This document shows, in pieces, positions 7,433-60,231 of a stretch of 64,000 nt of DNA. Location: contig CM026424.1 of NCBI GenBank assembly GCA_014871385.1, forward strand, positions 8,489,768 to 8,553,767. Direction: 5' to 3'. Source of the stretch: Ceratodon purpureus (Eukaryota > Streptophyta > Bryopsida > Pseudoditrichales > Ditrichaceae). The notes under the pieces are model-generated. The model was not told where the DNA came from and made no database searches. It saw only the letters and a program-made list of their open reading frames with translations. Each line of letters opens with the position of its first letter. The first letter of the stretch is position 1. The position numbers were made by a program, and so were the translations under genes.

Positions 7433-7435
7433 TTT

Positions 7436-15697: not shown

Positions 15698-16215
15698 CCT
15701 CTAAAAGACAAAGCAACCACTTTTGGGTTACGCTAGAAATAGAAAACCCAGTAAAATGCCCTAGACGGATCGGATTTAAGTGTTTTTTGTTCCTAACCTC
15801 TTTAGAATCAAGTTGAAAATAAGGATATGCTGAAATTTTAGTGAAAAAGTGAAACCCTGATTTTAGAAGAAAAAAAGCAACATGGGTCGGTGAGGTGTTT
15901 CTATAGTGAAGTTAGTGTTTCTATTGTGATAATGTTTCACCTGTACTTTGAGCACATTGTATAGTGAAATGAAGATCTCTCCTTGTGGATTTTTTTTTAG
16001 CGTTTTTGTTTTTGGGAATGCTTTTATGACCTTACTTTGTGGCTTTATTGTTTTGGGATTATCACAAACCCTTTTGAATTTGCCAAAAAATGCCATGTTC
16101 AAAAAAATAAAATTCATAGTGATACTAAAATGAAAAATTTTCTCACTTTGGAAAATGCAAGAATGGCACTTGAGGTACTGAAAAATTGTGGAAATACCCC
16201 TCTGTCCTTTAGAGG
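15698..16215. mobile_element. TTAA-flanked MITE, family member A, 518 bp
   Basis: Ends are CCTCTAAAAGACA on the left and, read inward, CCTCTAAAGGACA on the right, each next to TTAA (15694-15697 and 16216-16219). TTAA duplication is the hallmark of piggyBac-like elements. Two further members lie at 23390-23621 and 25430-26340. No transposase is encoded. Confidence 0.68.
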
Positions 16216-40836: not shown

Positions 40837-41029
40837 CTGAAGAATATGAAATGCAATCAGTGAAGGAAATCAAGGAACAGGACGAAGTATATGAAAGAAA
40901 TGGACTACATTCAAAGTCGTCGGCGACCCGCCGACAAAACGATGCATTGAAGAAACCTCAAAGGTAAATGTGCAGCAAGTGAAATGTCATGCATGCATCT
41001 TCAAAAAGAAGTACCGAATTGCAGCATTG

Positions 41030-41037
41030 GAAACAAA
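41030..41037. repeat. Target-site duplication of the giant hAT, left copy
   Basis: GAAACAAA, directly before the CAGGG end. Identical to 57759-57766. Confidence 0.95.
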
Positions 41038-41039
41038 CA

Positions 41040-41950
41040 GGGTTGTTCAAATAGACGTCCGACCCGGCTCCGGACGTCAAGACGTCCGACCCGGACGTCC
41101 CCCGTCCCGGACGTGGCGTCCCCGACGCTCGAGAATTACGCCGCGGTAATAATTTTGCGACCCCGGAGGGGTAAAAACATTCCCCAGCCGTCCGATCGGC
41201 CGATCCCGCCACCACGCCTCATCTCGGCCGTCCGTTCGCGGGGACGGCCGCGGGGACGGCCGCGGAGACGGCCGCGGGGTCGTTGCGGACGGCCGCACGT
41301 CGATCCGACGGCCAAGATGCGGCCGTGCTGGCACATCGCGGGCCGTCGGATGTGGGCGGCCCTCTAGGGCCGTCGGATCCCACGGCCGTCGCCGCGGCCG
41401 ACCGCGGGGACGGCCTCGGGGACGGCCGCGGGATCCGACGGCCCGGATCGATCCCGGCGCCTGCCATCGGGGACCGCTCGATCGGCGCGGCCGACCGCGG
41501 GCCGTCCGATCCCGCGGCCGTCCCCGCGGTCGGCAACGGCGACGGCCGCGGGATCGGACGGCCCGCGGCAGCCATGGTCGGCCTGGGTGGGCCGTCCGAT
41601 CGGGCGGCCGTCTCCGCGGTCGGCCGCGGGGACGGCCACTGGATCGGACGGCCCTCCGCGGCCGACCATGGCCGCCGCGGAGGGCCGTCCGATCCCGCGG
41701 CCGTCCGCGTGGGCGACCGCGGGGAGACACGGCCGTTCGCGCGGCCGACCGCGTGCAGACGGGGCCGACCGCGGAGACGGCCGCGTCGGTCGGACGGCCA
41801 CGCGGCGCCATCGCCCGACGCGGCCGTCCGATCGGACGGCCGGCGCCTTCGGGCGGAGTCGCGCCCGATCGGACGGCCGCGGGGGCGTAGATCGGACGGC
41901 CGCGGGGACGGCCGTGGGGACGGCCGTGGGGACGGCGGCGAGGTCGGCTT
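41040..41950 (+). promoter_or_regulatory. GC-rich GGACGGCC array 1, upstream of the kinase-like gene
   Basis: About 900 bp of very GC-rich DNA made of GGACGGCC, GCGGCCGTCC and GATCGGACGGCC words in both orientations, in contrast to the AT-rich flanks. It ends at a TATA box at 41955. The first 85 bp are the subterminal GGACGTCC repeats of the element. The long frames on both strands across it are Arg/Pro/Gly artefacts of the repeat. Confidence 0.85.
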
Positions 41951-41970
41951 CCCCTATATAAGGGGAAGCC
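41946..41970 (+). promoter_or_regulatory. Palindromic TATA box of the kinase-like gene
   Basis: Arms GGCTTCCCCT and AGGGGAAGCC surround ATATA, giving CTATATAAGG at the centre. It lies directly after array 1 and about 270 bp before the ATG at 42230. A G-run occurs in the leader near 42090. Confidence 0.75.
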
Positions 41971-42229
41971 GCCTCTTCATTTTTTACCTTTTTTCTCTCT
42001 TTTCGAGTGAGGCTGATTGCTACTGGTGGGGGACTTGATCCTTCTCCGTTGGTCGTTCTCACCGGGAGGAAAGGGGTCCTTCATTTGGGGGGGGGGGGAC
42101 TTTTCGAATTTTTAAACGCTTTTTTTTAAAACCCTTTGGATTTGTATTGCTCTTATTAATCATTGTGGGAATTGAGGGTTTCTTTGGAGTTGCGGTTACG
42201 ATTTCTTGAAGCCTTGAAGGCTTTCCACG

Positions 42230-43705
42230 ATGCCGAAGAATAAGAAGCAGAAGAATGTGGGGGAATGGGCGAACAAATTCGATGACATGCCGAGCTTACA
42301 TTGCAAGGATTATATTGTGGCATTCATCGTGGAATTTTACCAGGAGAATACCCTTGTTTCATTGAATAGTCGTTACGTTCGGTATGAGGAAGATGGGCCC
42401 AGGAAATTCAAGTCAGAGATGGAGACAAAGATTAGGGATCGTTTGATGGATCCGTGCTGGCATTCGGATACACAGAAGCCCGGTTACGATCATTTCGTGT
42501 CACAACGTGCACACGATGCGTTATGGAATGCTAAAGAGGTTATTACTAAGTATGCAAAGGCGCAAAGGGGGGGAGTCCAGGCCTTCAAGGATACTATTGC
42601 AAAGGCAGATTGCTTCACGAGACTAATGGCGCCCCATAGCTCAAGAAAGCATCGACGGGCGTCTATTACTTGGTGGAATTCTCCGATTGGGATGGAGACG
42701 GCGGCTGACTTACGTAAACGGCATTTGACTATCTTGGCAGACTTTGCAGTTTTCTATTACTTGGACAAGGAAGTCCAGAGAGGTGGTTATGCTACCATAC
42801 GTAGGGTTCGTATCGAAGGAAACCCGCAAATCCCACCGTACTGGGAGTTTGCTGAGAAACGGCCGCTCAATTGGTCTATGAGGCCGGATTTGGCACGTGT
42901 GGACCACAACAATGAATCTCTTGCGATAAGGATTCCCCATCCTGGTGTCATCCGCTTCCAGGCCATTCATCAGTTGGAACATCTGGGATTCATGTTCTGG
43001 TGGAACGGTGGGACCCTTCGAGCCATGCTACAGAGAGACAACGAGGCCCCGGGTGACCTCCCCATCGACTACATCTTCAGAGAGAATGCAGACGACAGTC
43101 CGATTCTAGGGAAGCGTCTCCAACTTTTCCGAAGTAAGCGTACAGAGCTTGCTTGGGCATTGTGTAACATCATAGATGCCGTACACAAATACGGTTACCT
43201 CCACAATGACTTGTCACCGGACAACATCCTACTTCACTTTCCGGAAGATGAGTCCAAGATCTACATCGGGGTTTGTGATTGGGGCTTGATGACGAAGACA
43301 CTAGAGAACAGAAGGTCGCCTTGGGTTTTTGAGAATGTCCATCAGAAGGAGGAGACTATGAGGAGGCGATACTGGGTGGATCCTCGCGTGGTATACGTAC
43401 ACAAGGAAAACCAAGATATTCAAATCATTCCAGATTTGACGGTTGCATCGGAGGATTTCGCAGCTGCGAAGATAGCGGCGAAGATCAACAGGGGCAACAT
43501 GTGCACGGCATACCACGAAGCCGAGCCAGTAGAAACACGCCATTTCCAGAATATCGGAGAACTCGCAATGGTTTTCGAAGGTTACCTTGAGAGAGTTTGC
43601 CAAAACAACAGAGGAACGATTGGTGGACTCGGACATCTTATTAACCGTTTCAGAGATACACACAACTGGCCCACTCCCATCGAGCACTATCGCGAGGGTT
43701 ACTGA
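42230..43705 (+). CDS. Unit 1 gene 1: kinase-like protein, 491 aa
   Basis: Intronless. Residues 1-180 are not recognised except for CKDYIVAFIVEF near residue 25, which loosely recalls CKKYVKM/CKEYVKM in genes 2 and 3. From about 185 the sequence resembles a protein kinase: a Gly-loop-like QRGGYATIRRVRI, a catalytic loop HNDLSPDNILL (His325) and DWG (about 349) in place of DFG. A VAIK-type lysine is not obvious, so activity is uncertain; it could be a pseudokinase or an atypical kinase. It converges on gene 2 and has its own GC array and TATA box. Its role in the transposon is unknown; modifying the transposase or host silencing factors are possibilities. Confidence 0.72.
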   Translation: MPKNKKQKNVGEWANKFDDMPSLHCKDYIVAFIVEFYQENTLVSLNSRYVRYEEDGPRKFKSEMETKIRDRLMDPCWHSDTQKPGYDHFVSQRAHDALWNAKEVITKYAKAQRGGVQAFKDTIAKADCFTRLMAPHSSRKHRRASITWWNSPIGMETAADLRKRHLTILADFAVFYYLDKEVQRGGYATIRRVRIEGNPQIPPYWEFAEKRPLNWSMRPDLARVDHNNESLAIRIPHPGVIRFQAIHQLEHLGFMFWWNGGTLRAMLQRDNEAPGDLPIDYIFRENADDSPILGKRLQLFRSKRTELAWALCNIIDAVHKYGYLHNDLSPDNILLHFPEDESKIYIGVCDWGLMTKTLENRRSPWVFENVHQKEETMRRRYWVDPRVVYVHKENQDIQIIPDLTVASEDFAAAKIAAKINRGNMCTAYHEAEPVETRHFQNIGELAMVFEGYLERVCQNNRGTIGGLGHLINRFRDTHNWPTPIEHYREGY

Positions 43706-44655
43706 TATGGAGTTACATATCTACCTTTCCGTATTTCTATAAAAGCATAATGTTTTTTTTGTTACCGGACGGCGGGCATAGCTCTTAGTAGTGAATAGTC
43801 CTATTTACACTCTATATTATTATGAGATGTTGGAATCTCAATTTTTGTACACCGGTCAATATTTTGTTTATAAAGTTTACTTGCATTTGGTTCAAATATG
43901 GTCTCTGTACTAAGATTGGTCTATTTCTACCCCTTGTATTATGAGGAAAACGGATTGGCTCCACACATCTAGCTAAAAGTCAATACTCTCAATTCTAATT
44001 ATGAAAATTATGCGATATGTGAATTGTAACATTTATGCTTTGTAATTTTTATTCTTACAAATATTGGCAAGCGTATACTCAAGTTCTTTTCGTGAAGACG
44101 AAAGCGTAAGGGCCGCAAAACGTGATTGCTCATAATCCTTTGTACAAACAAATACCTTAGATATAAATATGCAGTCATCAAAAAATATCATTCACGATAT
44201 TCTTATTAATTTAGCCAAAAAAATAATTGAAAATTATTTTGCATACTGGTCTTGAGATTCATTATATTCTAGTGCTCGTAAGCCGTAGACTCGTAACCCA
44301 TGTCAATAGGAAGTTGTCATTTTAAAAATAGTGATATTGATAGTAATGTGCACTTCGAATACGGCTACAAGAATATTAAAAAGGTAAATTCCTTTCAAAT
44401 GTGAAGACAACTACAATATAAAAGACAACACAACTACACTCTAAAACACTAATTATATCTATTCTACTTGCAAAATGTGGCACGTGCCTGTATTCTTGAG
44501 TCCTTACATTTTAAACCTCCATCTACAAAACTGCAAACTACGTACATACTATGCTTGCATCTTTTACTTTCCGTTCTAAATTTGTAATATGCGAAGTCCA
44601 CATTAAAGTCTCGGTACGCTACGATGCTGTAGAAAGTACTACCATGCACCCCATT
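43706..44655. other. AT-rich spacer between convergent genes 1 and 2 of unit 1
   Basis: No supported gene. It should hold the 3' untranslated regions of both genes. Confidence 0.6.
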
Positions 44656-46218
44656 CTAATAGTCTCCCCTCCACCCTAATCCATTGTAGTCATATGGATG
44701 ATAATAGTTCCCATCATTGGGGAGTTCGCTTGGACCTCCCCGATTGTACGTTTCTTGTGGCCCGTGCCTTGCAGAATTTGTGGAGGCTCTCAGAAGTCTC
44801 TCTCTCTCCTCCATCAATCTTCAATTATCCCGTCTTAGGTGGAACGCATGATTCTCCATCTGTAGTACGTAATTTTGCCTTCTTCGCTCCAACTCTAGTT
44901 CTTCCTCAAAATAGCTATCTCTTACAACTCGACCGAGAGGGTATCCAAAAGGAGGAGGTGGTACTCCGTCATCGCGATGAACTACGTTGCGGTTGTCCCC
45001 GCTATTGTGATCAGTACCGTCGGTGTGATAACCTAGAGGTGGAGGAAATATTCCAGGCGGAGTCCGCGAAGATGATCTGTAATCATCTTCTGCAAATAGG
45101 GCAGATGGGGTACCATGACCACCATATCCGCGGTATGGAGGGGGAGTTGCGTAATCATCACGACCGAGTCTCTGCGTATCTTCTTCGCGATGTGGGGAAT
45201 AACCGTGAGGTACCTCTCTCGGATGTGTTCGATGGCGCGGACTAGCACTCCTTGGAGGACTCGGTATTTCCGACCAGCCGTCGTCATAGTTACTAAAGTA
45301 TCTTGATCCCGTTGCATAATCTGGCCACGGTCGTCCCCCATAGGGTCCATACGTGCTATCCGCAAAGTCAAAGGGTAAATCAGCTCCTTCCGGTTCCCCG
45401 TGGCCATAGCCTTGTTCGTGGGGTCCCATGTCCTGACAATCTAGCGAACGATGTCCCCCGTGGGCAGAGCTTTGTCCATACTCCTCATGGTTGGTACGTG
45501 ATGACTCTCTGGCACGATGCCCTCTGCGATTCCTTGGATTTTCGTTTGAGCGACGCCCTCGATAGTTGTCTTCATCAGCATAGCTTAAACGACGTCTCTC
45601 CTGTTCCTCATCATTATATTCGATGGCTAGAGTTTGTATTCCTGCATCTTGTGCCGGTGGACTCCGACGGTTTGAAATATGTAATGGGGGACAATCGCTA
45701 TGTCCACTCCAGTCTGTTACAAGATCCATGCTGTCTCTGTTCATTCTATCTGTCCTCAGGCCCGAGACTGTAGTCCAGTCAACCCTCTTATGTAAGACTA
45801 TCTCCGCCCACACCATTGCCATATTCGAATACAACATGATATGAGGTCGGGAGTTCTGGATTCGTGCTGCTCGAAAAACCTCGTTGTATCGAATTTTGAA
45901 ATGATTACTTTCACAATTGTCGATCCTGATTTCTCCCCGTGTTGCTTGTTTCTCCGCAGCCTCGGTACGTAGATGTACTGGGATCAACTTCATGAGGTGC
46001 TTCATCTTGACATATTCCTTGCAAGTTACCATCCGCCATGGTGATGGTTCCCCCTCCCATCCAATCTCTGCTACACAATCAGGGTCATTCGTAGCGTATG
46101 GATCCAAGGGGTGTTTCCTTTTAGGAGTGGAGGGTCCTCCCCGGTCGTTACGAGGCATGGCGAAAGTCCGGTAAGCGAGTAGCTGTGAATACCGTGTATC
46201 GTACCAACCTCGTAACAA
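44656..46218 (-). CDS. Unit 1 gene 2: protein with the YVKM domain and an Arg/Ser/Tyr-rich tail, 465 aa (longer if the stop is read through)
   Basis: ATG at 46218; the intronless frame reaches a TGA at 44821-44823. Beyond it the same frame stays open for about 55 codons (RLMEERERLL... to GLGWRGDY) to a stop near 44656, with the same Arg/Gly/Tyr-rich style, so the TGA looks like a recent nonsense change or a read-through site. Residues 60-150 match gene 3 of the element: TCKEYVKMKHLMKLIP for ECKKYVKMYHIDKLWP and VWAEIVLHKRVDWTT for VYAELILKRKISWCT. The C-terminal half is disordered, rich in R, S, Y, G, P and H, resembling RNA-binding or condensate-forming tails. Function unknown. Confidence 0.72.
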
Positions 46219-46493
46219 TGCCTGTAACTTCTCCCCACCGTATAAAAGTTGATTTAATCTCGTATATATCTAGTGCATAAGGACTAAAACAAAACCCAGA
46301 ACTCCTGCCAAAAAACCGTACGTATGAAGCACTATATTGTTGGTTTCATAATAACCAACAAACGGTGCTGACAACCCTAAACACAATCCCACGATAACCC
46401 GTGGGGAAGTAGTAAAAGCTTGGAGGAACGCAACTGAGCTGAAGTAAATCCAGCACATGTAGCACGAGCACCCAAGTGAAGAAAAAGGAAGAA

Positions 46494-46516
46494 GGGCCAG
46501 CCATTTATGCTGGCCC
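46494..46516 (-). promoter_or_regulatory. Palindromic TATA-like box of unit 1 gene 2
   Basis: Arms GGGCCAGC and GCTGGCCC surround CATTTAT, which reads ATAAATG on the minus strand. It lies between the GC array and the ATG, about 280 bp upstream. Confidence 0.6.
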
Positions 46517-46529
46517 GAACCCCTAGGCA

Positions 46530-47240
46530 GCCAGTTAGGTCAAACGACGGCCCCCCTACGGCCGTTGGATCTCGGGGAATGGAGAATCCAACGGCCGTAA
46601 CTGGTCCGTCGCGGGAGCGGTCGCGGCCGTCCACGATCGCGGCCGCGACCGGTCGTGCGGCCGCGACCGCTCCCCAAAGGGTGCGTCGGTGGACCGCCGC
46701 CCCGCGGTCGGGACGGCCGACCACGTCGACGGGCGTCCCCGGGGTCGGCCGCGGCCCACCGCGGGGACGGCCGTGCTCCACCCCGCGGTCGGAGGCTGCA
46801 GCGGCGTGGTCGGCCACGGCCGACCACGCCGACGGCCCTTCCGACCGCGGGGTGGGCCGTGGCCGTCGCCGGGGACGGCCGTGCTGAACCCCGCGGGGAC
46901 GGCCTTGTCCGACCCCGCGGGGACGGCCGTGCTCCACCCCGCGGTCGGCCACGGCCGTCCACGCGGTCGGCCAGGGCTGTCCACGCGGACGGACCTTTCG
47001 ACCGCGGGGTCGGCCGTGGCCGTCCCCGGGGTCGGGGGGCTGCGACCGCGGTGTCGGCCAAGGTCGTCCACGCGGGGTCGGCCGCGGCCGTCCACGCGGG
47101 GTCAGCCACGGCCGTCCCCGCGTGGACGGCCGTCGTCCGCAGCCGTAGGATCTTGTCGTCGGAGCAGATCCGACGGCCGTGGGCGACGGCCGTCCACGCG
47201 GGGTCGGCCGTGGCCGTCCCCGGGGACGGCCGGGGAGGGG
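46530..47240 (-). promoter_or_regulatory. GC-rich GGACGGCC array 2, upstream of unit 1 gene 2
   Basis: About 700 bp of CGGGGACGGCCG, CCGCGGTCGG and GGCCGTGGCCG words. It ends a few tens of bases before the TATA-like box of gene 2. The overlapping long frames are repeat artefacts. Confidence 0.82.
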
Positions 47241-49415
47241 GGGGGAGGGTCGAAGGAACTCCCCTCCCCTTGTGTTTTCTCTCCTCTCCTCCCCCCTCTC
47301 CTGCCCTACTCTCCCCACTCCTTCTTGTCCCAAACAATCCCACTTGGGATTGTTTGGAGAGCATATCTCCTACAAATGGAAAATTCAGACATATCCCGGA
47401 TATTGTGGGGAATGTCTTGAAGATCCTGTGATCGGGGAGGTGGGGTCGACGTTTGAAATTGGGATCCAATGAACTATGTGATATTTTGGTTCTTTGGGGG
47501 TGGATAACCCCCTAGGATCTACAAATAATGTGAACACATTTATGAAGAAGAATATATATCCTATTGAATGGAAAGAACCGTAAACATTGTGGGTACACTA
47601 AATCAGTTTTTACCAATTGTCATTTAAAGAAACGAAGTTACTCATGTTTTAGCATACGGTAATGAATTAACATTTTATACTAACGAATCAAAATAGTAAA
47701 TGTCAACAACAATATGATAAGAGGAACATCGTGGAGAGAATGCACTAGAAGTAATTCAACGCATAAATTGATGTACACACTTGGTTTTTCATGCGGTGCA
47801 CCTTACGTTTTAATGGTTAAGAGATTTGCATTTATATTTCACCGGTTTACGGTTTAGGGTAATCTCTTAGAAATATAGATCCAATTTCTTCTCGATTAGT
47901 GGTATACAATGAAAATATTTATATAGATTCTTTGACTCTAATTTTTAATGGAATGATTTACCCCAGTTTTATTTCTTTGATTTTGCATACTCTCGTTCTT
48001 TAGTATTATGCAAGAATCAAAAATAAAAACATAAATAGTAGTTTAGATTTTGAGAGAAACTGGAGATAATAATAAAGTGAAATAAACCAAAACAAACATT
48101 CAATTCTCTTGGGATTATGCAATTCATGGGAGGAATAAAACTCAAATCATTTGTTTTCATAACAAATGGTCCAATTCTAATTTCTCATGGCTGGTTTAGA
48201 GTTATTTGAAATATAAAAACTCTCCTTCCTCTTTAATGTCTTTTATTTTACAAACTTCCATACCGTAGTACTGTGTTATCATTTAAAAAAAAAAAAAAAA
48301 TCACTAGCTCACATTATGAGATGAGGAAGGGATAATAGTAAAAAACAAAATTAAAACAGAAAACATTCAACCGTCACTGAATAATGCCAATTTGCGAACG
48401 ACTATAATTGAAATCATTGTTTTTATAAACAACTCTAGTTTCCAACGCCCAGAATTGAGTTGTACCTTGCCACTTATATGAAATAAAATAAATAAATTAG
48501 GTAACACATTTACATTATACTCTATACAAATATATGTTTATTCATATACACTTTAACGTAAATATAAATATGGAATTGGATTCCAACTTGTACAATGTAT
48601 AGTAAATACGTACAAAAGTAATCACTTACTAATGACACAATGAGAGAATTTAACAAGCACGAATGAGAGAATTTAACAAGTAAAATGGTGGAATAGTGGT
48701 CGAATTAGTAAAATATACTTTAACATGGGTCATGGAGGAAATAAATCGAAATACGGACGTTCAAAACGATATGAAAGGAAGAAATTCACGAAATGACATT
48801 TATGGAGCTTCGAGGGTTGAAGTTCTGAATTAGACAAATTAAACGTTAAAAAAAGGGCATAAACTAGAGGGGAATAAACATAGAGGAAAATAAAGAAGAG
48901 GTAAATGAAAACAATATTCGAAAGTGGAAATTGTATAGAGGGAGGAACGTTAAAAGTACATAAAGAGATGGTAACTCGAATTAAATTGATAATATGAAGC
49001 TGTTTAATGAAAGTATAATAGAAGCACTTATGTATTTAAAAAAACAAAAATTCAAAGCGGAGAATAAGAAGACGGAGAACTATTTAGATTACAATTTCTG
49101 AAACAAGTTTAGATGAGTTCGATTTCTGCAAGGAACTTTTGGAGTGCGATGATAGACCACCTTGAAATGCGTACGATAGAAACAACAGAAATAATGATTC
49201 AAATAAATGACACATACATTAACTTCAGTGGAGCGTACGGAATAATGACTCGTTGAAGAATTTAGATGCTTTGCATACCATGAAGTATTTTAATTCATGT
49301 TTACATTAACTGCTGTTCTCATTTTAATTGGTGAAAGAAATTAACAGGTTTAGTGTAATATGTGGTCGGAAGATGTAGCATTATATGTTTTTTTCATTTG
49401 TATTTTAAAAATGGG
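47241..49415. other. AT-rich spacer between the divergent genes 2 and 3 of unit 1
   Basis: About 2.2 kb with no supported gene, sharply lower in GC than the arrays at both sides. A short direct repeat AGAGAATTTAACAAG occurs twice near 48640-48680 and an A-run at 48285-48300. Confidence 0.65.
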
Positions 49416-49990
49416 GGGGGAGGGAAATTTCCCGCGGCCGCGACGGCCTCGTCCCCACGGTCGGGGGTCGTTTCCACGGCCGTGCGCCGTCTCCGCGAGG
49501 GCCCGTCCGCGGGGACGGCCCTTCGATCGCGGCCGTGATCGAACGGCCGTCGCCTTGGAGACGGCCCCGATCGGACGGCCGCGGGCTGTCGCCGACGGTG
49601 CCGTCCCCGCGGCCGTCTCCAAGGCCCTCTACGCGGCCGTCCCCGTGCGGTCGGCCGCCATCGGACGGCGACGGCCGCGGGGACGGCCGCGATCGGAGGG
49701 CCGGAAGCCGCCCCCTCGGGGGCCGTCTCCAAGGCCGTCCCCTCGGCGACGGCCTTCATCGGACGGCCGTCGCCGAGGACACGGCCCGATCGGACGGCCG
49801 CGGAGGAACGGGCCTCCGCGGCCGTCGCCGTGGCCCCCGACCCGACGTCCCCCAACGGCCGTCGTCAGGTTCGGGACGACGGCCATTGGCCGCGGCCGTA
49901 GGTTCGGGGGGCGACGGCACTAGGCTCGGGGGGACGGCCGTAGGGTTGGGGGCCGTCGCCATATATGGCGACGGCCGTCCCCCACTTCCT
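49416..49990 (+). promoter_or_regulatory. GC-rich GGACGGCC array 3, upstream of the RING gene
   Basis: About 570 bp built from GATCGGACGGCC, GGGGACGGCC and CCGTCGCC words, similar to array 1. It ends around the palindromic TATA box at 49951-49976. Confidence 0.84.
49951..49976 (+). promoter_or_regulatory. Palindromic TATA box of the RING gene
   Basis: A perfect 26-bp palindrome: GGCCGTCGCC, then ATATAT, then GGCGACGGCC. The ATG is about 240 bp downstream. The same design is seen at 41946 and 46494. Confidence 0.75.
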
Positions 49991-50208
49991 CACTTCACTC
50001 TCCTCAATAGTCCCTCTCCTATTGCTACAGTTTCCCAATTCACTTGGGGGCTTGTTGGTACGTGGGGGTGAGGAGATGGGGGTCCCTTTTTATTGTGGGG
50101 GGGGGAGTTTTTGAATTTTCTGTATTCGTTATTTTGTAAACGTCATTTATCAACTCCTTGTTTTCTTTAAAACAAAACCATATCGTTTTTGTTTAAAACG
50201 AGGCTACT

Positions 50209-53200
50209 ATGGCGGATCCGGAACATGATGAGATTGGAGGAACCGGGAAGAGGAACAGGCCCAAGGGAATGTGCCACAACTTTTCTTGGGAGATCCTAGA
50301 CAACAAAAACATTGTAGCAGAAGAAGGCTGGGAATCTGTAGGGGAGATTTTCTGGACTTTCAAGGAGTGCAAGAAGTATGTGAAGATGTATCACATTGAC
50401 AAGTTATGGCCCCGAGAAGAACACGAGATGAACACACGGACTTTTAGTTGCAAGCCCTGGTCATGCATGGATGACCATTTCTTGCATCGGGCATATGAAG
50501 TCTGGACTACTATGTTTGGGCAACGGAAGCCCAGCAAAGGCCATTTCAATTATACCATTTGCAGTATGGTATATGCGGAGCTAATATTGAAGCGAAAGAT
50601 TAGTTGGTGTACGTACCCCACTACGAAAGACAGGCCGTTGCAAATTGGATGGATGGTAACAGACATTCCGGATTTATATCTGATCGATCCTTTGCAAGCA
50701 CAGAAGGTTGTAGCGGAGTTCCGAAAGCGGCAGTGGCCACATCTAAAGAGCTTTCCGAAGAATGAAGTAAAAAAATTACAGAATGAAACTCCGCATCGTC
50801 CAGAGGAAAAGAAGCCCGTTGCCATTGCCAATGTGATCGCTACGATGTTCCCCGTTGCCACAGAAACTAATGCCCCTACTATTCCTAGAGCAGACCTGGA
50901 AATCACGGTGAAATCTTCCTACGATACAAAGGGCAAGGCAGCCGTAGATGAGGTGGAAGTGGAGGTGGAAGTGGAGGTGGACAATGACTGCTCAACACAT
51001 ATTACGGCTGCGGAAGCCGGATGCTCCAACCCTTGTTCAGTGGATGATGGTCCAAGTTCCTTGTCAATAGTACAAGTGCCTACCGAAGAGGATAGCACAA
51101 AGGATGCAGTTCATTCCATTTCGGAGATTATGGAGCTGGTGAAGTCGATGCCAAACAATGAATCATTGAAGGAGTTACTAGATTTTAGCATCAAATTGAC
51201 GGAGGTGTCCTCTGATGAACAGCGTGGGGGCTTAGAGAATACCACAGAGGGAGACGCTGCAAGAAAAACCACGGAGGAAGTGCAACAAATTCATAATGTG
51301 TTGAAGATTGCACACACCCTGAAAGAAGGGGCTTCCGTATTAGGCGCTATGGCACCAGATCTCATAAATATGGCTCATGCATTTGGAAGTATCACTCCGA
51401 GCATGATACAGGGTGCCCTCGGCTTTGACACTTTGGCATCTTCCATTAAGCCTCTTCTGGAAGACCGTGTGAAATTAGGCGAAGAGAACATGTCCCTGAG
51501 TAAGGATTTAATGGATGCAACGGAACAAATCAAGAGTTTGACAAGAAGGTTGGACCATGTGAAGATGAGTTTTTTTGCACAATTGGAAGAGTGCAAAATC
51601 TACCACCCGGTAGAGAAGGAGAAAAACAAAACAAAAGAAGTGAAACCTACGGTGAAGAAGGAAGTGGTGAAGGTGGAAGGAAAGGATCGTATCATTGAAG
51701 TACTGAGCGATGGTGAGGATTCCGATGACCTTGGCCTTTCTAAATTTTCAAATAAAAGTGGAGATGGGGCCACACAAGGGATGGCGTCTCAGAAGTCTAA
51801 AATGACATCTGGTCCAGTTCCATTGGACATTGGCTGTAGCCAAGCAACACCAGGACATGAGGATAGAGGAAAAGGGCCAATGGATGATTCAATAGAATTA
51901 GACATTCTTTTACGGGATTTGGAGGTGGCTAGAAAGGAAAGAGACGAGGCCCGTACGGAACTGGAAAGGCTGAAGACCACCATAAGGATGGTAGATGATA
52001 CACCATCTTCCATAAGGGCATTATCATGGCTTGGTTGGGTCCACAAACTACGAGATAAGGAGACAATAGTCTCTAGAGCACAACAGGATATGAAGAAATG
52101 TGCAATTACTTCTATGGATGTCCAAGAAGCTATCCAATCATCTTTACAGAAGTATAACGAGGCAGCAGCCAAGGGCGGCGAGGATGCTACAAAAATCACG
52201 ATATGGCGCGATGTAGGAGAAATGATGGAGCGCACATTACATAGTTCCAAAAATAAAGAAGGGGTCATTGACTGGGCGCTAGAGGTCGAGGAGGGGTGGA
52301 TGCCGTACGATGTACTATCATCTCATTTGGATGAATCGAAACGTGTGGTTATCCATACCCGCAAACCGTCGGAGGAATATTCGAAGGAAACGTGTCCCAT
52401 CTGTCAACAATATTTTGGGCCGGAAGGGGCCTTTGAGATGGGAAATTGTAATCACAAGTTCCACATAACCTGCATCGCGAAGGCTGCTTTAAACAACAAA
52501 CAGTGTGTTATGTGTCGCTCCCCAGTTAGTTCACGTTTTTACGAGATGCTGGGACTACAACACGTGATGCCGCCTGGGCATGAGTTTGATCGGTGGAATT
52601 TACCACTAGACCAACTACCTAAGAAAGAGCTGAATTATTATGATTGGGGCAAATCACTGGCTTGGAACCCGGAGACAATGACTCACCAACTATCTACGGC
52701 TAACGATGCCGGAATGGACGATTTTTCATGGATGACACACGACTATGAGGTGGAGATGAGGGCAAGTGAAATTCCGGATGCCAAGGACCGAGAATTTTTT
52801 TGTAGGAACTTCGGTGGACATTGGAGTATACATCGCAATCGCTTCTTCCGGTTTCCAAAACCGGAAGTTGTGGTAGATGCCGACGGTAAGAGAAGAGAAG
52901 TAGAACGGGACTATGGCCAACTTGATGAGTACAAGATGTATGACAGAACCCCGGTTGGTAGAGCACTTGTATTGGCCAAACTAGAAGAAGCCATTCAGCA
53001 TCGTCGCACTTTTACAGAGGAATCCTTCAAATATTCGGACCTAGACTACTGGGTGATCACTAAGAAGTTTGACGATGCTCTTCATAAAATAGTTAACGAC
53101 TGGAGGAGGGCACTTCGTGCGGAGGATAATTCCTCTCGTTGGTCACGCAATAGGATTGAGAAGATTGTGCAAGAAACAGTAGCCAAGATTGACAAGGCAA

Positions 53201-53391
53201 AGGAGTTGTGGAACGGGAAGAATTCCAAGAAGCGCAATCGAGACAACCCTTATGAAGATGATCCCGAATGGGGGGAAGATAATCGTCGTTCTTTGGATCG
53301 CGTGGAAGAAGAATATCGATCGGGGGGTACGATTACACATCCAAGCCAGCGACGCCAAACTCGGAGGTCAAATGCAAACAATGGACGTTGA
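50209..53391 (+). CDS. Unit 1 gene 3: RING-H2 protein with the YVKM domain, 1060 aa
   Basis: Intronless. Residues 45-145 carry the domain shared with gene 2 (ECKKYVKMYHIDKLWP, then MVYAELILKRKISW). A long acidic, mostly disordered middle follows, with a coiled coil at about 560-610 (LRDLEVARKERDEARTELER). A RING-H2 finger lies at about 729-769: CPICQQYF, then CNHKFHITC, then CVMC, with the C3H2C3 ligand order. The remaining 290 residues include a Trp/Tyr/Phe-rich globular part and a basic C-terminus. RING-H2 proteins are typically E3 ubiquitin ligases; the target here is unknown. The gene converges on the transposase gene, with its own GC array and palindromic TATA box. The intact frame suggests selection. 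Confidence 0.8.
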   Translation: MADPEHDEIGGTGKRNRPKGMCHNFSWEILDNKNIVAEEGWESVGEIFWTFKECKKYVKMYHIDKLWPREEHEMNTRTFSCKPWSCMDDHFLHRAYEVWTTMFGQRKPSKGHFNYTICSMVYAELILKRKISWCTYPTTKDRPLQIGWMVTDIPDLYLIDPLQAQKVVAEFRKRQWPHLKSFPKNEVKKLQNETPHRPEEKKPVAIANVIATMFPVATETNAPTIPRADLEITVKSSYDTKGKAAVDEVEVEVEVEVDNDCSTHITAAEAGCSNPCSVDDGPSSLSIVQVPTEEDSTKDAVHSISEIMELVKSMPNNESLKELLDFSIKLTEVSSDEQRGGLENTTEGDAARKTTEEVQQIHNVLKIAHTLKEGASVLGAMAPDLINMAHAFGSITPSMIQGALGFDTLASSIKPLLEDRVKLGEENMSLSKDLMDATEQIKSLTRRLDHVKMSFFAQLEECKIYHPVEKEKNKTKEVKPTVKKEVVKVEGKDRIIEVLSDGEDSDDLGLSKFSNKSGDGATQGMASQKSKMTSGPVPLDIGCSQATPGHEDRGKGPMDDSIELDILLRDLEVARKERDEARTELERLKTTIRMVDDTPSSIRALSWLGWVHKLRDKETIVSRAQQDMKKCAITSMDVQEAIQSSLQKYNEAAAKGGEDATKITIWRDVGEMMERTLHSSKNKEGVIDWALEVEEGWMPYDVLSSHLDESKRVVIHTRKPSEEYSKETCPICQQYFGPEGAFEMGNCNHKFHITCIAKAALNNKQCVMCRSPVSSRFYEMLGLQHVMPPGHEFDRWNLPLDQLPKKELNYYDWGKSLAWNPETMTHQLSTANDAGMDDFSWMTHDYEVEMRASEIPDAKDREFFCRNFGGHWSIHRNRFFRFPKPEVVVDADGKRREVERDYGQLDEYKMYDRTPVGRALVLAKLEEAIQHRRTFTEESFKYSDLDYWVITKKFDDALHKIVNDWRRALRAEDNSSRWSRNRIEKIVQETVAKIDKAKELWNGKNSKKRNRDNPYEDDPEWGEDNRRSLDRVEEEYRSGGTITHPSQRRQTRRSNANNGR

Positions 53392-53855
53392 GTAGAGTAT
53401 TTACGTTGGACATGGTACCCGCATTACTACGGTTAATGTGACAATACACTGGGTGATAGTCGTATTTAGAGCAGTATATATATATATATATTGGTTGCGG
53501 AGCCGGGTGTATGGACTTTACACTACTTCTATATGTACTTGCAAAAATTACCTTTGGTTTTAATACAATTTCATTTATGTTTTATCGGAGTTGCATTTGT
53601 GTTGAAAGAATTGTTAGTACTTAGATGCATCGAACTTCATATGTAGATTGTGTACATTCATTACGAGAAAGAAATTGCGAGAAGTACAATCAAAGTAAAA
53701 ATAAGTACACAACGTGGAGGACAATATTGAAGAGGCAAGCACCACCGCTTAAATGAGATATAATATGATAATGGTTTCTAGAAATGGACATTCATAAAAG
53801 AGTGGCATTCTAGGGTGGTGCACTGGAAATGCCGCCTTCTAACTATCGTGCCCAA
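53392..53855. other. Spacer between convergent genes 3 and 4 of unit 1
   Basis: AT-rich, with a short TA tract near 53475; presumed 3' untranslated regions and no gene. Confidence 0.6.
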
Positions 53856-56800
53856 TCAGGCCACATAATCGCTGTCGTCCTTCACTTCGGCCCCACTAGG
53901 ACCGGAAGAATCGTATTCGTCATCGCCATCGCTCTCGCGTACCTTCTTCACCCTCGCCTTACTCTTCTTCTTTGACTCGAATGGGTTCAGGAATTTCTTT
54001 GGGCCATTCGGGTCATCCAAAGGAGTTTTTGGCCTACCAGGATTGAAAGCCAACACCTTCTGAGTCTTGTCTACAGCCTTTCGCTTGGACGTGGCTCTAG
54101 CAGGGGGTTTCTCAGGAAATATGTCCGGTTTTCCCAAAGCCAACTTCGGCCCAAAGAGATTCCCAATTGGAAGTCCGTCATCAGTAGAGAGGAGGCCCGG
54201 GTCCGCTTGTCGGGTTTGGACCAATCTCTTCCTACATTTCTCCGCTACTTCAGCAGCCTTAGCATCTGCCTTCATTTTTTTAGACAACTCAACCAACCTC
54301 GTGGACGATTCGAACCCGCCAACTTGGACCCTAGTCTTTGCAGTTCCAAACAATGTGCGAGATGCACCCGATACGGGTACGGGCACATCCTCCTTTGTAG
54401 TGGGTGGAACCATATCGTCCTTCAGGCGGTTGAAGTTTGGAGAAACAACCTTAGAAGTATCAATGGTGGGGTCTCCCTCTTTCTTTGGTATGACCAAATC
54501 CACGGTAGTATGAGAGGATCCTCCCCGGAGAATCTTATCACTGTTTAATAAACCGTCTCCATTCAAAAAAGAGGAAAGAGGAATCGTATCCTCCTCGTTG
54601 GTACCTTCTTCTTCGACATCATCATACTCGAAAGCACGCTCCATTGGCGCAGGAGAACAATGGGATTTTCCTTTCGGAGACACCTCGAGGTCGTCGACTG
54701 GGGCCTCGATGGGGGGGTCAATTGATAGATCATCGAAGGGTAGATCAACATCAGACTCACTAGAGTAGTCAACATCCTCGGTTTCCACGGCCTTCGGATC
54801 CTCCTTCCCCTCCAACTCCCCGTAGAACCTGCCTAAGGCACTCAACTTGGACTGGGAAATTATCTTGGAATTTGTATACACAAACACGAGGTCATTAGCC
54901 CTCTCCGGAAGTAAACGGTTTCGCTTCCTGTCGTGGACAAAGGAGTAGCTACTCCAATTCCGCTCGCATGAAGAAGAAGACAGGGGCTGAGCTAAAATCC
55001 TTTTTGCAATTGGGGAAATGAATTTACCAGCGGATCCGTATATATCCCACCAACCAGAAGGCGGCAGTTGTGACTTAGAGGATTCACGTACGTCACGAAA
55101 CGGAGGATAAGCTTCACGGAATGCAAAGAACTCTTCTATGACCACTTCCTTCAGTGTCGGAGGAGCCATCGACAACAAGACCTCCTTCGCCGATGCCATT
55201 GCATCAGTATCATTGCGAAGGTCCTCATCGTCAATAAGATAAGGGTTTAGAAGCGCAGCAGCACACTGTAAGGGTGATTTAATCATGGCTTTACGCTCGT
55301 AAAATGAGTCCTCGCAGTAATCAGCATTGTCTGAGTCTAGATTGAAGGGCTCATGGCGTAAAGAGAGAACATGCTTCTCAAGGTTGCGGAGAACAACGTA
55401 GGCTTTACCCAATGCCGATTCCTTCGCATCAAACTCTCGTAGGGCATATACAACGGGACTCGTCATCCACTTGAAGTTTGCACATTGCTCCCAGAAAACG
55501 TCATCCAAGACAACCCTCTTAACATCGCGTGAGATCTTCGCTTTGTCACGGGCAGATAAGGTCTTCTTCGTTTCGTAGTTTCTCCAGTCAGGATCCACAA
55601 CGCTCTGCTCCAATGCTCCTCGAACCTTCAGTAGACGGGAAATCATAATGTAGTGCGATGCAAACCTAGTCTGACCAGGCATCAGCAAGCTAAGTTTTGC
55701 CTCGTGCTTTCGAAATACCGAGAGTGGCATTTGCCTTATCTTTATGAACTTAACCAAGTTCTTAGCCCGATCTAGTAGCTCCTTCACCCACTTCATCTTA
55801 CTCCAATCCTCCAACAAAAGGTCCATCGCATGGGCAGCACATCCTTGGACAAATATGGATGGATAGAGTGCTTGGACCAACTTTCCGGCATTAAGCATCA
55901 CCGGAGCATTATCGTAGCATACTTGAATGATGTTCTGTTCTCCAACTTGTTGGATAAACTTCTCAATGACGGTTGCTACGAAAACAGCATCCTTCTCTTT
56001 CCCACTCGTGTCAACGGCTCCCAAGAATAACTCACCAGCTGGAGATACCAGCATTGCGTTTATTAGAGGGCGACTGCTTACAGAAGTCCACCCATCCAGG
56101 GCCAATGTTCCCCCGTACTTCCTAACACTTGAAAAAATCCTATCATTCAAGGAAGTCTCCAAATCAGTCCTTGCTTGGGCTAGTAAATTTGTTCGGAGAT
56201 GGTGGTAAGATGGAGGTGTGTATGATCTCTTCATGTTGGACGTCTTCAACACCGCGTCCTTGAAAGAGGCACTCTGAGCCACGTTAAACGAGATACTGTT
56301 CTCGTAAAAAAATGTGGCCCATGCTTTGTCGCATTCCCGCCTCTGAGTCTCTTCGAAGCCCTCTTGAAGGGTAGATTGCCTCTTTGCCTTCAAAGGAGGA
56401 AACGGTCCACTACCTTCCCCCGGAAAAGTGGAAATGAAAGGTACACCCTCACCAATTAAAACGGGTTCATTCTTCGGAGTAGAAACCCGGGATCCAGCGC
56501 ATGAGTCCACATCCATGGGAGTGTTCACTCTCGGGGATATATTGCCACGAGTCACCGGGGAAGTACTCTGCTCCGACATGAATATTCTGGAGTCGTTAGG
56601 GAATTTGCCACCGCAATTCTTGAACAAGGACAGTATAGCGGGTGACAAATTAGTGCAACGACCTACTCCACTAGTCCGTACCCCTAGAACTTTGTCATAG
56701 CCCAAATGACTGAGCATCCGCTCAATCCTCTTTGCGAAAGTGTTCTTGCATAGCATACATTGAACCATCTCAGTCTTCTTCTTCTCCGCATCGCTCATAT

Positions 56801-56936
56801 GGACTTCGGTATACCATGGGGAGTAACTTTTAGACGCCATTGGTGCACTTGATAGATCGCCCGGAAAAACTTCAAAAAATCGGGGTACCACGTCCTCAAG
56901 AGAACTAGAGCCTCCGAAGAAGCTCCAATTCAACAC
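53856..56936 (-). CDS. Unit 1 gene 4: hAT transposase (DUF659 type), 1026 aa
   Basis: Cut-and-paste transposase. The N-terminus has a BED-like zinc finger (CMLCKNTFAKRIERMLSHLGY, with a further Cys in GVGRC). The RNase H core shows LALDGWTS (Asp about 279), VCYDNAPVM (Asp about 340), GCAAHAMDLLL, and SSSCERNWSSYSFVHDRKRNRL at about 655 with the third acid and the hAT C-terminal dimerisation block ending RANDLVFVYTNSK. Residues from about 700 form an unusual 300-residue acidic then Lys-rich tail, absent from ordinary hAT transposases (usually 600-800 aa), perhaps for nuclear targeting or partner binding. The frame is intact, so the element should be autonomous. The gene has its own TATA box and GC array at 57047-57600. 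Confidence 0.92.
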   Translation of the reverse strand: MLNWSFFGGSSSLEDVVPRFFEVFPGDLSSAPMASKSYSPWYTEVHMSDAEKKKTEMVQCMLCKNTFAKRIERMLSHLGYDKVLGVRTSGVGRCTNLSPAILSLFKNCGGKFPNDSRIFMSEQSTSPVTRGNISPRVNTPMDVDSCAGSRVSTPKNEPVLIGEGVPFISTFPGEGSGPFPPLKAKRQSTLQEGFEETQRRECDKAWATFFYENSISFNVAQSASFKDAVLKTSNMKRSYTPPSYHHLRTNLLAQARTDLETSLNDRIFSSVRKYGGTLALDGWTSVSSRPLINAMLVSPAGELFLGAVDTSGKEKDAVFVATVIEKFIQQVGEQNIIQVCYDNAPVMLNAGKLVQALYPSIFVQGCAAHAMDLLLEDWSKMKWVKELLDRAKNLVKFIKIRQMPLSVFRKHEAKLSLLMPGQTRFASHYIMISRLLKVRGALEQSVVDPDWRNYETKKTLSARDKAKISRDVKRVVLDDVFWEQCANFKWMTSPVVYALREFDAKESALGKAYVVLRNLEKHVLSLRHEPFNLDSDNADYCEDSFYERKAMIKSPLQCAAALLNPYLIDDEDLRNDTDAMASAKEVLLSMAPPTLKEVVIEEFFAFREAYPPFRDVRESSKSQLPPSGWWDIYGSAGKFISPIAKRILAQPLSSSSCERNWSSYSFVHDRKRNRLLPERANDLVFVYTNSKIISQSKLSALGRFYGELEGKEDPKAVETEDVDYSSESDVDLPFDDLSIDPPIEAPVDDLEVSPKGKSHCSPAPMERAFEYDDVEEEGTNEEDTIPLSSFLNGDGLLNSDKILRGGSSHTTVDLVIPKKEGDPTIDTSKVVSPNFNRLKDDMVPPTTKEDVPVPVSGASRTLFGTAKTRVQVGGFESSTRLVELSKKMKADAKAAEVAEKCRKRLVQTRQADPGLLSTDDGLPIGNLFGPKLALGKPDIFPEKPPARATSKRKAVDKTQKVLAFNPGRPKTPLDDPNGPKKFLNPFESKKKSKARVKKVRESDGDDEYDSSGPSGAEVKDDSDYVA

Positions 56937-57046
56937 ACTTCTGAACGCCGCCGTTCACCATGCAATAGATACACACGTATATTAGTGGAACTAGTAGCAC
57001 ATGGAGTACAATTCAGAAGTGTAATGGCAACTTTCAGGAGGGGTCT

Positions 57047-57054
57047 TTTATACT
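57047..57054 (-). promoter_or_regulatory. TATA box of the hAT transposase gene
   Basis: GTATAAAA on the minus strand, about 110 bp upstream of the ATG and just after the GC array. Unlike the other three it is not inside a clear palindrome. Confidence 0.6.
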
Positions 57055-57089
57055 CATTCCCTGAAATCCCAAGGGGTAAGCCCTAAAAA

Positions 57090-57600
57090 TCAACGGAGGA
57101 CGGCCGTCGAGGCCGTAAGTCAACGAGGGGCCGTCCGATCATGGACTGTCACCGCCGTCGAAGGGGCCGTCGCCGGGGACGGCCCCCCGCTCCGCGGCGA
57201 CGGCAAGGGGCCGTCGCCGGGGACGGCCCCCCCCCCCCACCGCGGCGACGGCAAGGGGCCGTCGCCGGGGACGGCCCCCCCCCCACCGCGGTGACGGCAA
57301 GGGGCCGTCGGCGGGGACGGCCCCCCCCCACCGCGGCGACGGCAAGGGGCCGTCGCCGGGGACGGCCCCCCCCACCGCGGCGACGGCAAGGGGCCGTCGC
57401 CGGGGACGGCCCCCCCCACCGCGGCGACGGCAAGGGGCCGTCGCCGGGGACGGCCCCCCCCACCGCGGCGACGGCAAGGGGCCGTCCCCGGGGACGGCCC
57501 CCCCCCACCGCGGCGACGGCAAGGGGCCGTCGCCGGGGACGGCCCCTTCCCGACGCGTCCGACGGCCCCCCCCGCTCCGCGGCGACGGCCGCACCCTCCC
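57090..57600 (-). promoter_or_regulatory. GC-rich array 4: 44-48-bp tandem units upstream of the transposase gene
   Basis: About nine tandem units of 44-48 bp with the core AAGGGGCCGTCGCCGGGGAC and CCGCGGCGACGG, separated by C-runs of 6-11 bases that account for the length differences. It shares GGGGACGGCC with arrays 1-3 but is far more regular, so it probably expanded recently. Frames across it on both strands are artefacts. Confidence 0.86.
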
Positions 57601-57758
57601 CCGCAACCCCTCCGCCGCGTAGAAGATGTGGTTTCACCCCGGGGTGAAACCTATGCGGGTGATTTTTTTTTTCTAAGTCACAGGACGTCCCCTGGCGCTG
57701 GCGGACGTCCGCGGACGTCCCCACGTCCCGAGCGTCCCGGACGACCGTGACAACCCTG

Positions 57759-57766
57759 GAAACAAA
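57759..57766. repeat. Target-site duplication of the giant hAT, right copy
   Basis: GAAACAAA directly after the ACAACCCTG end, identical to 41030-41037. Confidence 0.95.
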
Positions 57767-57874: not shown

Positions 57875-58972
57875 CTAATCAGTCGGCTGCCCGCCGATGA
57901 TGGAACTACCAGGGGCCTCCGGAGGACAAGGTAAATTCACAAACCAAGATCCAGGATCACCCGGGACGTCAAACCCGCATGCATGAGAAGGAATAACCTC
58001 CCTATACTTTTGGTATTCGCGAGATCCTGGAAAAAGACGTGGCTTCCCCACGCTAGAATTCTTCCTACAATACTCCCGGACATCCAATCCAGACTGCTTA
58101 AGTCCTGCAAGGAATGGTGTAACTACCCTAGTTAAATAGGGATTGGGGGTGGGTTGAGGTTCTTTGCACTCTGCAGAGTCCCAGAAAAAAGAATTAGGAT
58201 GGACAGCGCTAAATGGATGATTAAGTACATTCCTACAAGGCCGGTCGTCTACCAGTAGGGTATTCTGGACAGTGGCACCTGATCGAGCCAGTAGCCTAGT
58301 GTCGCAGAAAAGTCTATCCAGACGCTTCAACAAGTACTCCCGTTTCCCATTCGGACTATTCCTTGTTGAGATATCACACCAGAATCCTGGAAGGCGTCTG
58401 TAATTGCTCCTGAGCAAAGGATGAATGGCTAACAGCTTCTGGAAGTGACGATCGAGATTCTTTTCAGAAACCGTGGACCAAAAGACTACCTCGAAATTCG
58501 CCGTGCAGAACTCTAGAAATGAAAGAAGTCCTGGTCTAGCCCGGATATGAATTTTTGTCTTCTGGTCATCACCGATATACCCGTGGTGCTCCGCGATGAG
58601 CAATCCCTTAATGTCAAGGACAAGGTAGTATCGTTGGAGAGGTACCTCAATATTACGCGCAATAATATCAGTGCTGACACTGACGGAATCATCGCGCGAG
58701 GAACCGGTGCGCGGGATCGCGACGTTGGTCTCGACGAACGAGGTGGAAGCCATCGCACACCGGCCAGAGCTATGTGCAGCAGACAGCGTCGGCGGCCCGC
58801 CGACTGGATAGTCGTACTCGTCCTCCCCATCACTTTCATTCTCGGCTTCCGCTCCCGGAGACTCTTCGACGTGAGCATCACCATCAGGAGATGTTGGGTA
58901 CTCCTCTAAGAGCATACTAAGAAGGGAAGGTCCCTGGTGCACTTCAATTTCAGCGTCATCCTCCAGTGACTC
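57875..58972 (-). CDS. Unit 3 HAD gene 2: FCP1/NIF-like phosphatase domain with an acidic N-terminus
   Basis: The exon starts after TTTTTCAG at 58973 and ends at a stop at 57875; at least one upstream exon is expected. An acidic, disordered N-terminal segment of about 100 residues precedes a HAD fold: YYLVLDIKGLLI, RARPGLLSFLEF, VVFWSTVSEKN, then TLLVDDRPCRNVLNHPFSAVHP. The order and spacing fit the plant FCP1/NIF-domain family whose motif I is LDLNGLL and whose motif III is LLLDDSPYK. The second motif I residue is Lys here, so activity may be altered. The unit 3 word GTCGGC-N5-GCCGAC is part of the coding sequence twice (GGPPT, and GGQPT at the C-terminus). Neighbour and paralogue of the gene at 59230. 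Confidence 0.7.
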   Translation of the reverse strand, partial: ESLEDDAEIEVHQGPSLLSMLLEEYPTSPDGDAHVEESPGAEAENESDGEDEYDYPVGGPPTLSAAHSSGRCAMASTSFVETNVAIPRTGSSRDDSVSVSTDIIARNIEVPLQRYYLVLDIKGLLIAEHHGYIGDDQKTKIHIRARPGLLSFLEFCTANFEVVFWSTVSEKNLDRHFQKLLAIHPLLRSNYRRLPGFWCDISTRNSPNGKREYLLKRLDRLFCDTRLLARSGATVQNTLLVDDRPCRNVLNHPFSAVHPNSFFWDSAECKEPQPTPNPYLTRVVTPFLAGLKQSGLDVREYCRKNSSVGKPRLFPGSREYQKYREVIPSHACGFDVPGDPGSWFVNLPCPPEAPGSSIIGGQPTD

Positions 58973-59229
58973 CTGAAAAATGAAGGACAAATTCCAAGAA
59001 AACATGGGTGATCAATCGCATGCTCACAATTCATACTTGCTCTAGTGTACAAATGGAGACACAATAAGATATCCACGACAGAATACACAGTCTCGACACT
59101 GAGTTCCGTTCTCATATATTTAAAAGGAGGAAAACTTTATTTACTGAAAAAGTCTAAATACATGAAGATCCCATCGGCGGGCAGCCGACTGAATCATGTG
59201 CATGCTCTCTAAAACAGTTTCTACATCTA

Positions 59230-60030: not shown

Positions 60031-60231
60031 ACGTGACGGTTAGGATGACGGTCGGCGGACAGCCGACTTGCAAGCAACATTATTTGGAAAAAGGGAAAGC
60101 GTACAACTTGGCATTTACCGAAAATTTATTCATATTTGGCAGTACAAACATCTAACACAATCCTAGCGCCCGATCACTACACTAAATTATCAATGCAGGC
60201 ATTTAAAAGATGGACTGGGCCACCGCCTGAT

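Follow-up and report, generated by a model that had tools for sequence, protein, structure and literature searches.

A 16.7-kb, very probably autonomous hAT transposon with four genes in the moss Ceratodon purpureus

The window analysed here, a stretch of 64,000 nucleotides of the moss Ceratodon purpureus (assembly GCA_014871385.1, contig CM026424.1, positions 8,489,768 to 8,553,767 of the forward strand), contains a complete hAT unit of 16,721 bp, designated E1, the ends and target-site duplication of which were read directly. hAT elements make 8-bp duplications and normally encode one protein in a few kb. E1 encodes a hAT transposase (ORF4; ORF, open reading frame), a RING-H2 protein (ORF3), a protein with the same N-terminal domain and no RING (ORF2) and a kinase-like protein, and is very probably an autonomous multi-gene hAT transposon. 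The unit inserts precisely, makes 8-bp duplications and has the same four genes inside the full copies read. An earlier note, made from the letters of the window, had proposed a giant hAT element with a set of four genes, and this core claim was borne out by the ends, the duplications and 11 full copies.

E1 has the features of the hAT superfamily, namely an 8-bp duplication, short inverted repeats and the transposase domains DUF659 and Dimer_Tnp_hAT. The duplication GAAACAAA is exact, and the terminal inverted match between CAGGGTTGT and ACAACCCTG is perfect over exactly 9 bp, which fits the short inverted repeats expected of the superfamily. The motif GGACGTC/GACGTCC occurs five times in the left 150 bp and six times in the right 150 bp, with two further matches in the remaining element and three in the remaining window; the counts of GACGTC itself (four left, three right) were equalled in none of 500 dinucleotide shuffles at either end. 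The inverted ends, the duplication and the subterminal clusters at both ends had all been described in the earlier note and stand, with the small correction that the full palindrome GGACGTCC is present once at the left end and three times at the right.

In Pfam, the transposase matched DUF659 (E 7e-36, 123.6 bits, cut-off 34.7) and Dimer_Tnp_hAT (E 6e-10, 39.3 bits, cut-off 21.4), and ORF3 matched RING-H2 (E 2e-7), in agreement with the domains first named for them. The transposase motifs LALDGWTS, VCYDNAP, QGCAAHAM and SSCERNWS, to which the catalytic D, D and E residues are here assumed to belong, are present in all 11 copies, and two segments aligned with Hermes such that the first motif, the last motif and the C..H motif coincide, although weakly (E 0.09, the first segment not being significant). 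The N-terminal domain common to ORF2 and ORF3 agrees at 34% over 111 amino acids. ORF2 as a whole gave no Pfam family up to E 1 and a best E of 0.45 against solved structures; it is the most variable gene of the four, and in most scored copies its open frame is longer than that of E1 by 55 codons on the upstream side (537 versus 482). Inspection of the kinase-like protein by eye shows a stretch resembling a glycine loop, EFAEKRP with its lysine, LHNDLSPDN and DWG. Across 18 sequences (the 11 full copies and seven further kinase genes), VCDWG was present in 18, RGGYATIRR and EFAEKRP each in 17 and LHNDLSPDN in 15, stretches which we take to be kinase motifs. Structure prediction yielded no usable model of the kinase-like protein (mean predicted local distance difference test score of 32 from seven aligned sequences) or of the shared N-terminal domain (mean of 38 from two). 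Four long open frames lie where the earlier note had placed its four intact genes, its term intronless being judged from the open frames alone, and the remaining frames of at least 120 amino acids in E1 overlap the GC-rich arrays described below or the four genes.

The genome searched for further copies comprises 362.5 Mb in 151 contigs, one of which has 110.5 Mb. Allowing up to two mismatches, 287 left and 292 right E1-type ends were found, and reversed-pattern controls gave none. Protein searches, in which the best candidates were scored (86 of 1138 for the kinase, 88 of 1115 for ORF2, 43 of 1572 for ORF3 and 44 of 1435 for the transposase), returned scored lists occupied by element copies. 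The 27 entries examined for duplications, spanning full-size, short and very long copies, included 22 with exact 8-bp duplications, two with one mismatch, one hidden by N and two non-matching; they comprise a set of 20 (16 exact, one with a single mismatch, one with N and two unmatched) and seven loci (six exact, one with one mismatch). All 22 exact duplications differ from one another, as the earlier note had anticipated for genuine copies. It had also anticipated empty sites in other strains; within this genome, an unoccupied copy of one target site was found. Copy E4 (16,783 bp) is inserted in a repeat, and its joined flanks run gapless across the junction in two other copies of that repeat, matching at 172 of 180 bases in L054 and 170 of 180 in L053, the L053 row having one base different inside the E4 target. 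Since these repeat copies show the unoccupied site without a gap, they are direct evidence that the whole E4 unit was inserted at once.

Besides E1, ten full copies were selected by a spacing of about 16–17 kb between their two ends and are for this reason a non-random sample with respect to completeness. Aside from insertions and deletions, the 11 full copies, E1 included, are all collinear with E1, and each contains the four genes in identical order and orientation, which bears out the expectation of several full copies with the same gene set. The four frames are all free of stops in 5 of the 11, and in each of the others one or more genes are interrupted by stops or frameshifts. Ten copies (without E2) include two groups of three full-length members that are 99.7–99.8% identical, each group being spread over three chromosomes, and these suggest that the whole unit spread recently.

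Pairing of ends, which took in 123 of the 287 left and 113 of the 292 right ends, gave 69 pairs (C124 having the flanks of copy E11), of which 28 span 4.0–5.4 kb, two 7–8 kb, two 13–15 kb, 31 16.3–17.2 kb and six over 24 kb. It is very improbable that separate one-gene transposons nested in a small hAT element and now move together by accident. Large insertions inside the element are indeed common, as in pairs of 31.9 kb and 40.2 kb with matching duplications, known by their ends, but the 16.3–17.2 kb class is sharp (31/69) and the unit was inserted many times as a whole, as the duplications and the unoccupied site testify. A transposase match was contained in 28 of the 31 pairs at about 16.7 kb, one of the two at 13–15 kb, three of the six over 24 kb and none of the 30 below 8 kb, the pairs being compared with the 150 DUF659 and 44 transposase matches listed, from which a decayed transposase could escape. 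The transposase alone between E1-type ends, which the earlier note had named as the finding that would contradict it, was thus not seen in the pairs below 8 kb among the matches listed, and the short class looks non-autonomous.

Five short copies were read. One of 7.8 kb is missing E1 positions ~7,360–15,970, including ORF3 and the transposase, and retains the left half with the kinase. Among four copies of 4.3–5.1 kb, one (C7) is internally deleted and has none of the four genes, and the other three (L053, L054 and L055) consist of element ends around an interior of ~3 kb unrelated to the full element, with inverted stretches of 0.6–0.9 kb and found in both orientations. The target of E4 lies within a copy of this interior. 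As all five short copies have matching duplications, they were probably inserted by transposition, presumably with transposase from elsewhere, although the C7 and 7.8-kb copies may instead have undergone deletion after insertion. The matching duplications of gene-less short derivatives indicate that the element requires hardly anything in cis beyond its ends.

A genome search with DUF659 (best 150 of 903 matches scored) revealed a second abundant transposase class besides the E1 family, and 13 kb of one copy of this second class were read. The transposase of that copy shares 34% identity with that of E1 over 676 amino acids, and ~5.8 kb past the transposase stop lies a 1130-amino-acid open frame homologous to ORF3 (E 3e-15 for the RING part, 2e-12 for the N-terminal part), which has an E1-like N-terminal domain and a RING just under the Pfam cut-off (24.4 bits, cut-off 27.3). 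When the best 100 of at least 151 second-group ORF3 matches were compared with the 150 DUF659 matches, E1-family copies included, an ORF3 homologue was located up to 30 kb downstream on the same strand at 59 of the 150 loci, 37 of these at 8.45–8.79 kb; a shifted control, crude in assuming one length for all contigs except C6, gave a mean of 0.8 and a maximum of 5. The stretch just past the ORF3 homologue (best 40 of 110 matches) was preceded within 5 kb by the homologue at 35 of 40 places, the spacing being the same at most of them, and had a DUF659 match 5–16 kb upstream at 26 of 40, so that the repeated unit of the second group extends over at least ~12.6 kb. Transposase and ORF3 are in tandem in this group and tail to tail in the E1 family. 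Judging from its transposase and copy number, the second group is probably itself a transposon with 8-bp duplications. A left end at C5:3483775 and a right end at C5:3887921 are 404 kb apart, and a second-group ORF3 adjoins both in complementary portions, residues 155-230 at the former and 2-158 at the latter; a rearrangement or misassembly may have separated what was a single insertion.

Because its homologue is kept beside a transposase of only 34% identity, ORF3 looks like an old partner of the hAT transposase and not like recent cargo, and the word cargo, which the earlier note had used for the genes beside the transposase, is probably wrong for it. More distant relatives of ORF3, with 54–55% and 34% identity and open frames of 430–944 amino acids, occur at C3:24616841, C3:24684248, C3:24889095, C68 and C87, and at C7:9095500 and C1:5264652, and suggest further families.

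Constraint on the genes was estimated by reassigning the observed mutation types to like sites in 5000 resamplings, using variants found in two or more of the 11 full copies; these figures and those for diversity are indications and not independent tests, because related copies share history. The transposase is short of amino-acid changes (11 of 5000 resamplings as low), and the three non-transposase genes pooled have 36 non-synonymous changes and 0 stops compared with an expected 43.4 and 2.7 (19/5000), no stop being found among the shared variants of the 11 full copies. Pooled pairwise ratios of non-synonymous to synonymous change (dN/dS) are 0.54 for the kinase, its seven extra copies included, 0.46 for ORF2, 0.48 for ORF3 and 0.37 for the transposase. 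Diversity among ten copies (without E2) is 0.0065–0.0086 in the transposase, ORF3 and the kinase, lower than in two intergenic stretches (0.0157 and 0.0158), and 0.0071 at the left and 0 at the right element end.

A further feature of E1 is a GC-rich array before each gene. The motif ACGGCC/GGCCGT forms four clusters, each directly 5' of one gene start, on either strand, and occurs singly or a few times elsewhere in the element, which holds 127 of the 141 matches in the window. The arrays are rich in inverted repeats. Across the 11 copies, 39 of 44 gene starts were located, and all 39 have an array, with 12–39 matches in the 1150 bp upstream and 0–1 in the 1150 bp downstream. The length of three of the arrays differs much from copy to copy, with a gap in some copy at 23%, 26% and 57% of alignment columns, whereas in the ORF3 array only 4% of columns have one.

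VANDAL elements are Mutator-like transposons. In Arabidopsis their VANC anti-silencing proteins bind motif arrays, as stated in the portion of the source that deals with them (PMC5735166). Like E1, VANDAL is a multi-gene plant DNA transposon with dense non-coding motif arrays that change as repeats are gained and lost (PMC5735166), a feature to which the four arrays of E1 correspond, but its proteins and motif are different, and the likeness is one of arrangement.

The hAT transposase would bind the terminal and subterminal GACGTC sites and cut and paste the whole unit. ORF3, with its RING-H2 domain, is a probable ubiquitin ligase. The function thought most likely for the extra proteins is to assist or protect the element, and ORF3, ORF2 and the kinase-like protein could be helpers sustaining expression or regulating transposition; that they act partly through the similar arrays before the four genes, as VANC does on VANDAL motif arrays, is a tentative proposal drawn from analogy. 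Equally tentative is the broader reading that E1 belongs to an undescribed giant autonomous hAT lineage, probably of mosses, with two or more families (34% transposase identity), an ancient helper with N-terminal domain and RING-H2, a kinase-like gene and a second helper in one family, and similar regulatory arrays, in which counter-silencing would work by ubiquitin and possibly phosphorylation, not by demethylation.

Several results weigh against the reading of E1 as an autonomous multi-gene hAT transposon with helper proteins. Taken singly, ORF3 (167/5000) and ORF2 (269/5000) show weak constraint, and the kinase none that is significant (1139/5000, 11 full copies). Diversity is nearly as low in the gap between ORF3 and the transposase (0.0099) and in the ORF3 array (0.0103) as in the kinase, ORF3 and the transposase, and that of ORF2 (0.0152) is like that of the intergenic stretches. 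The kinase-like gene, named as such in the earlier note, matched Pfam Pkinase at E 3.6e-5, yet with a score under the curated cut-off. In the second group, the 13 kb that were read contain a single match to the array motif; a kinase relative was not found there (best E 3.3), and ORF2 matched nothing but the ORF3 homologue, in its N-terminal domain (E 6e-8). Copy E11 (C8:10419895-10436548) and contig C124, which have the same bases beside both ends and represent one locus seen twice, lack a matching duplication. Short pairs (28/69) are also about as frequent as full-size pairs (31/69), from which it follows that the extra genes are dispensable in cis.

DNA transposons capture genes, and the alternative that an ordinary hAT element took three host genes, now carried along and decaying, would accommodate the lack of significant constraint on the kinase and the stops in many copies, above all on C6, presumably the large V chromosome of the male assembly. 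This explanation is nonetheless unlikely, in view of the presence of the four genes in every one of the 11 full copies read, the pooled constraint on the three non-transposase genes with no stop among shared variants, and the ORF3 homologue retained beside a 34%-identical transposase in the second group.

An origin in part from a virus, in which a hAT transposase would have combined with genes from a large DNA virus in the way that piggyBac and a herpesvirus are combined in Teratorn, has very little probability. The kinase matched a serine-threonine kinase family in PHROG (E 3.5e-5), as is expected of any kinase, and a kinase paired with a RING ligase also occurs in large DNA viruses. Against this, the Pfam matches of the four ORFs include no capsid, polymerase or packaging family, nor a Polinton/Maverick or Teratorn-like polymerase, integrase or capsid, and the kinase and ORF3 had no relatives in IMG/VR viral contigs, in a search that finds close relatives only.

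Among known elements, Ac, Tam3, Tol2 and Hermes have 8-bp duplications, short inverted ends, subterminal clusters and hAT transposase domains like E1, but are generally known to encode one protein in a few kb, where E1 has four genes in 16.7 kb. Lanisha was reportedly described from Ceratodon and, like E1, is said to be a DNA transposon of Ceratodon purpureus. It is EnSpm-like, of a group that makes 2–5 bp duplications in most cases according to the passages of the source concerned with it (PMC12730594), and was ruled out as the identity of E1, which has a DUF659/hAT and not an EnSpm-like transposase and 8-bp duplications. The hAT7 elements of rust fungi have, like E1, an additional gene in a hAT element, a TET/JBP dioxygenase gene beside the transposase, but are fungal and make 7-bp duplications, and TET/JBP is the sole extra gene named in that part of the text, compared with 8-bp duplications and three other genes in E1 (PMC12730594). 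Because a hAT with one extra gene has already been published in hAT7, the earlier note's description of a new kind of giant eukaryotic transposon was too strong. ToxhAT/ToxTA of fungi resembles E1 in size (14 kb), in having several genes and in being named as hAT, but in the section devoted to it is given a TA duplication, probably belongs to Tc1/mariner and is called non-autonomous (PMC12506042); the TA duplications ruled it out as a precedent for a large hAT. Starships, also large multi-gene eukaryotic elements, have a tyrosine recombinase and varied cargo (PMC12506042), compared with a hAT transposase and a fixed gene set in the copies of E1 read, and no match to the DUF3435 captain of Starships was found by Pfam in the four ORFs.

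No giant or multi-gene hAT in moss was found in open-access titles and the starts of abstracts, Repbase and closed papers being outside the scope, and the whole word hAT is absent from two reviews, on giant transposons (PMC6431247) and on gene capture in plants (PMC13317346). E1 is a hAT by its duplication, its inverted repeats and its transposase domains, and its four-gene architecture was not found in the literature searched.

In the window, E1 sits between members of a tandem cluster of NIF-type (CTD-phosphatase-like) genes, with flanking frames at 40159-40869, 57875-59011 and 59233-60039, all on the minus strand. A leucine-rich-repeat protein frame of 554 amino acids lies at 21135-22799 on the plus strand, and scans of the window for tRNA and Rfam families gave no matches. 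The features of E1 are collected in Table 1.

Table 1. Features of E1 in the window (aa, amino acids; protein lengths from the first ATG)
Feature	Position	Strand	Basis
Target-site duplication GAAACAAA, left	41030..41037		Read directly
Element E1, complete, 16,721 bp	41038..57758	+	Ends, duplication; ends recur genome-wide
Left terminal inverted repeat CAGGGTTGT	41038..41046	+	Read directly
Left subterminal GGACGTC/GACGTCC cluster, 5 matches in 150 bp	41038..41187	+	Motif count
GC-rich palindromic GGACGGCC array directly upstream of kinase-like gene	41150..42010 (approximate)		Motif and inverted-repeat map
Kinase-like gene, 491 aa	42230..43705	+	Pkinase E 3.6e-5, below curated cut-off
ORF2, 445 aa	44821..46158	-	N-terminal domain as in ORF3; remainder unmatched
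GC-rich palindromic array directly upstream of ORF2	46377..47420 (approximate)		Motif and inverted-repeat map
AT-rich stretch without long open frame, between ORF2 and ORF3 arrays	47500..49350		Frame list, motif map
GC-rich array directly upstream of ORF3	49400..50071 (approximate)		Motif map
ORF3, 1060 aa	50209..53391	+	ORF2-like N-terminal domain; RING-H2 at ~residues 728-770
hAT transposase (ORF4), 994 aa	53856..56843	-	DUF659, hAT dimerisation domain
GC-rich palindromic array directly upstream of transposase gene	57087..57600 (approximate)		Motif and inverted-repeat map
Right subterminal GGACGTC/GACGTCC cluster, 6 matches in 150 bp	57609..57758	+	Motif count
Right terminal inverted repeat ACAACCCTG	57750..57758	+	Read directly
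Target-site duplication GAAACAAA, right	57759..57766		Read directly

Textbooks present hAT elements as cut-and-paste transposons with a single gene, and a four-gene lineage shows that the superfamily can become a complex element, its gene set spreading whole and one partner gene being kept across deep divergence. This raises the question of the role of a RING ligase and a kinase for a plant transposon, for which the arrays before the four genes offer an entry point and the abundant short derivatives natural controls.

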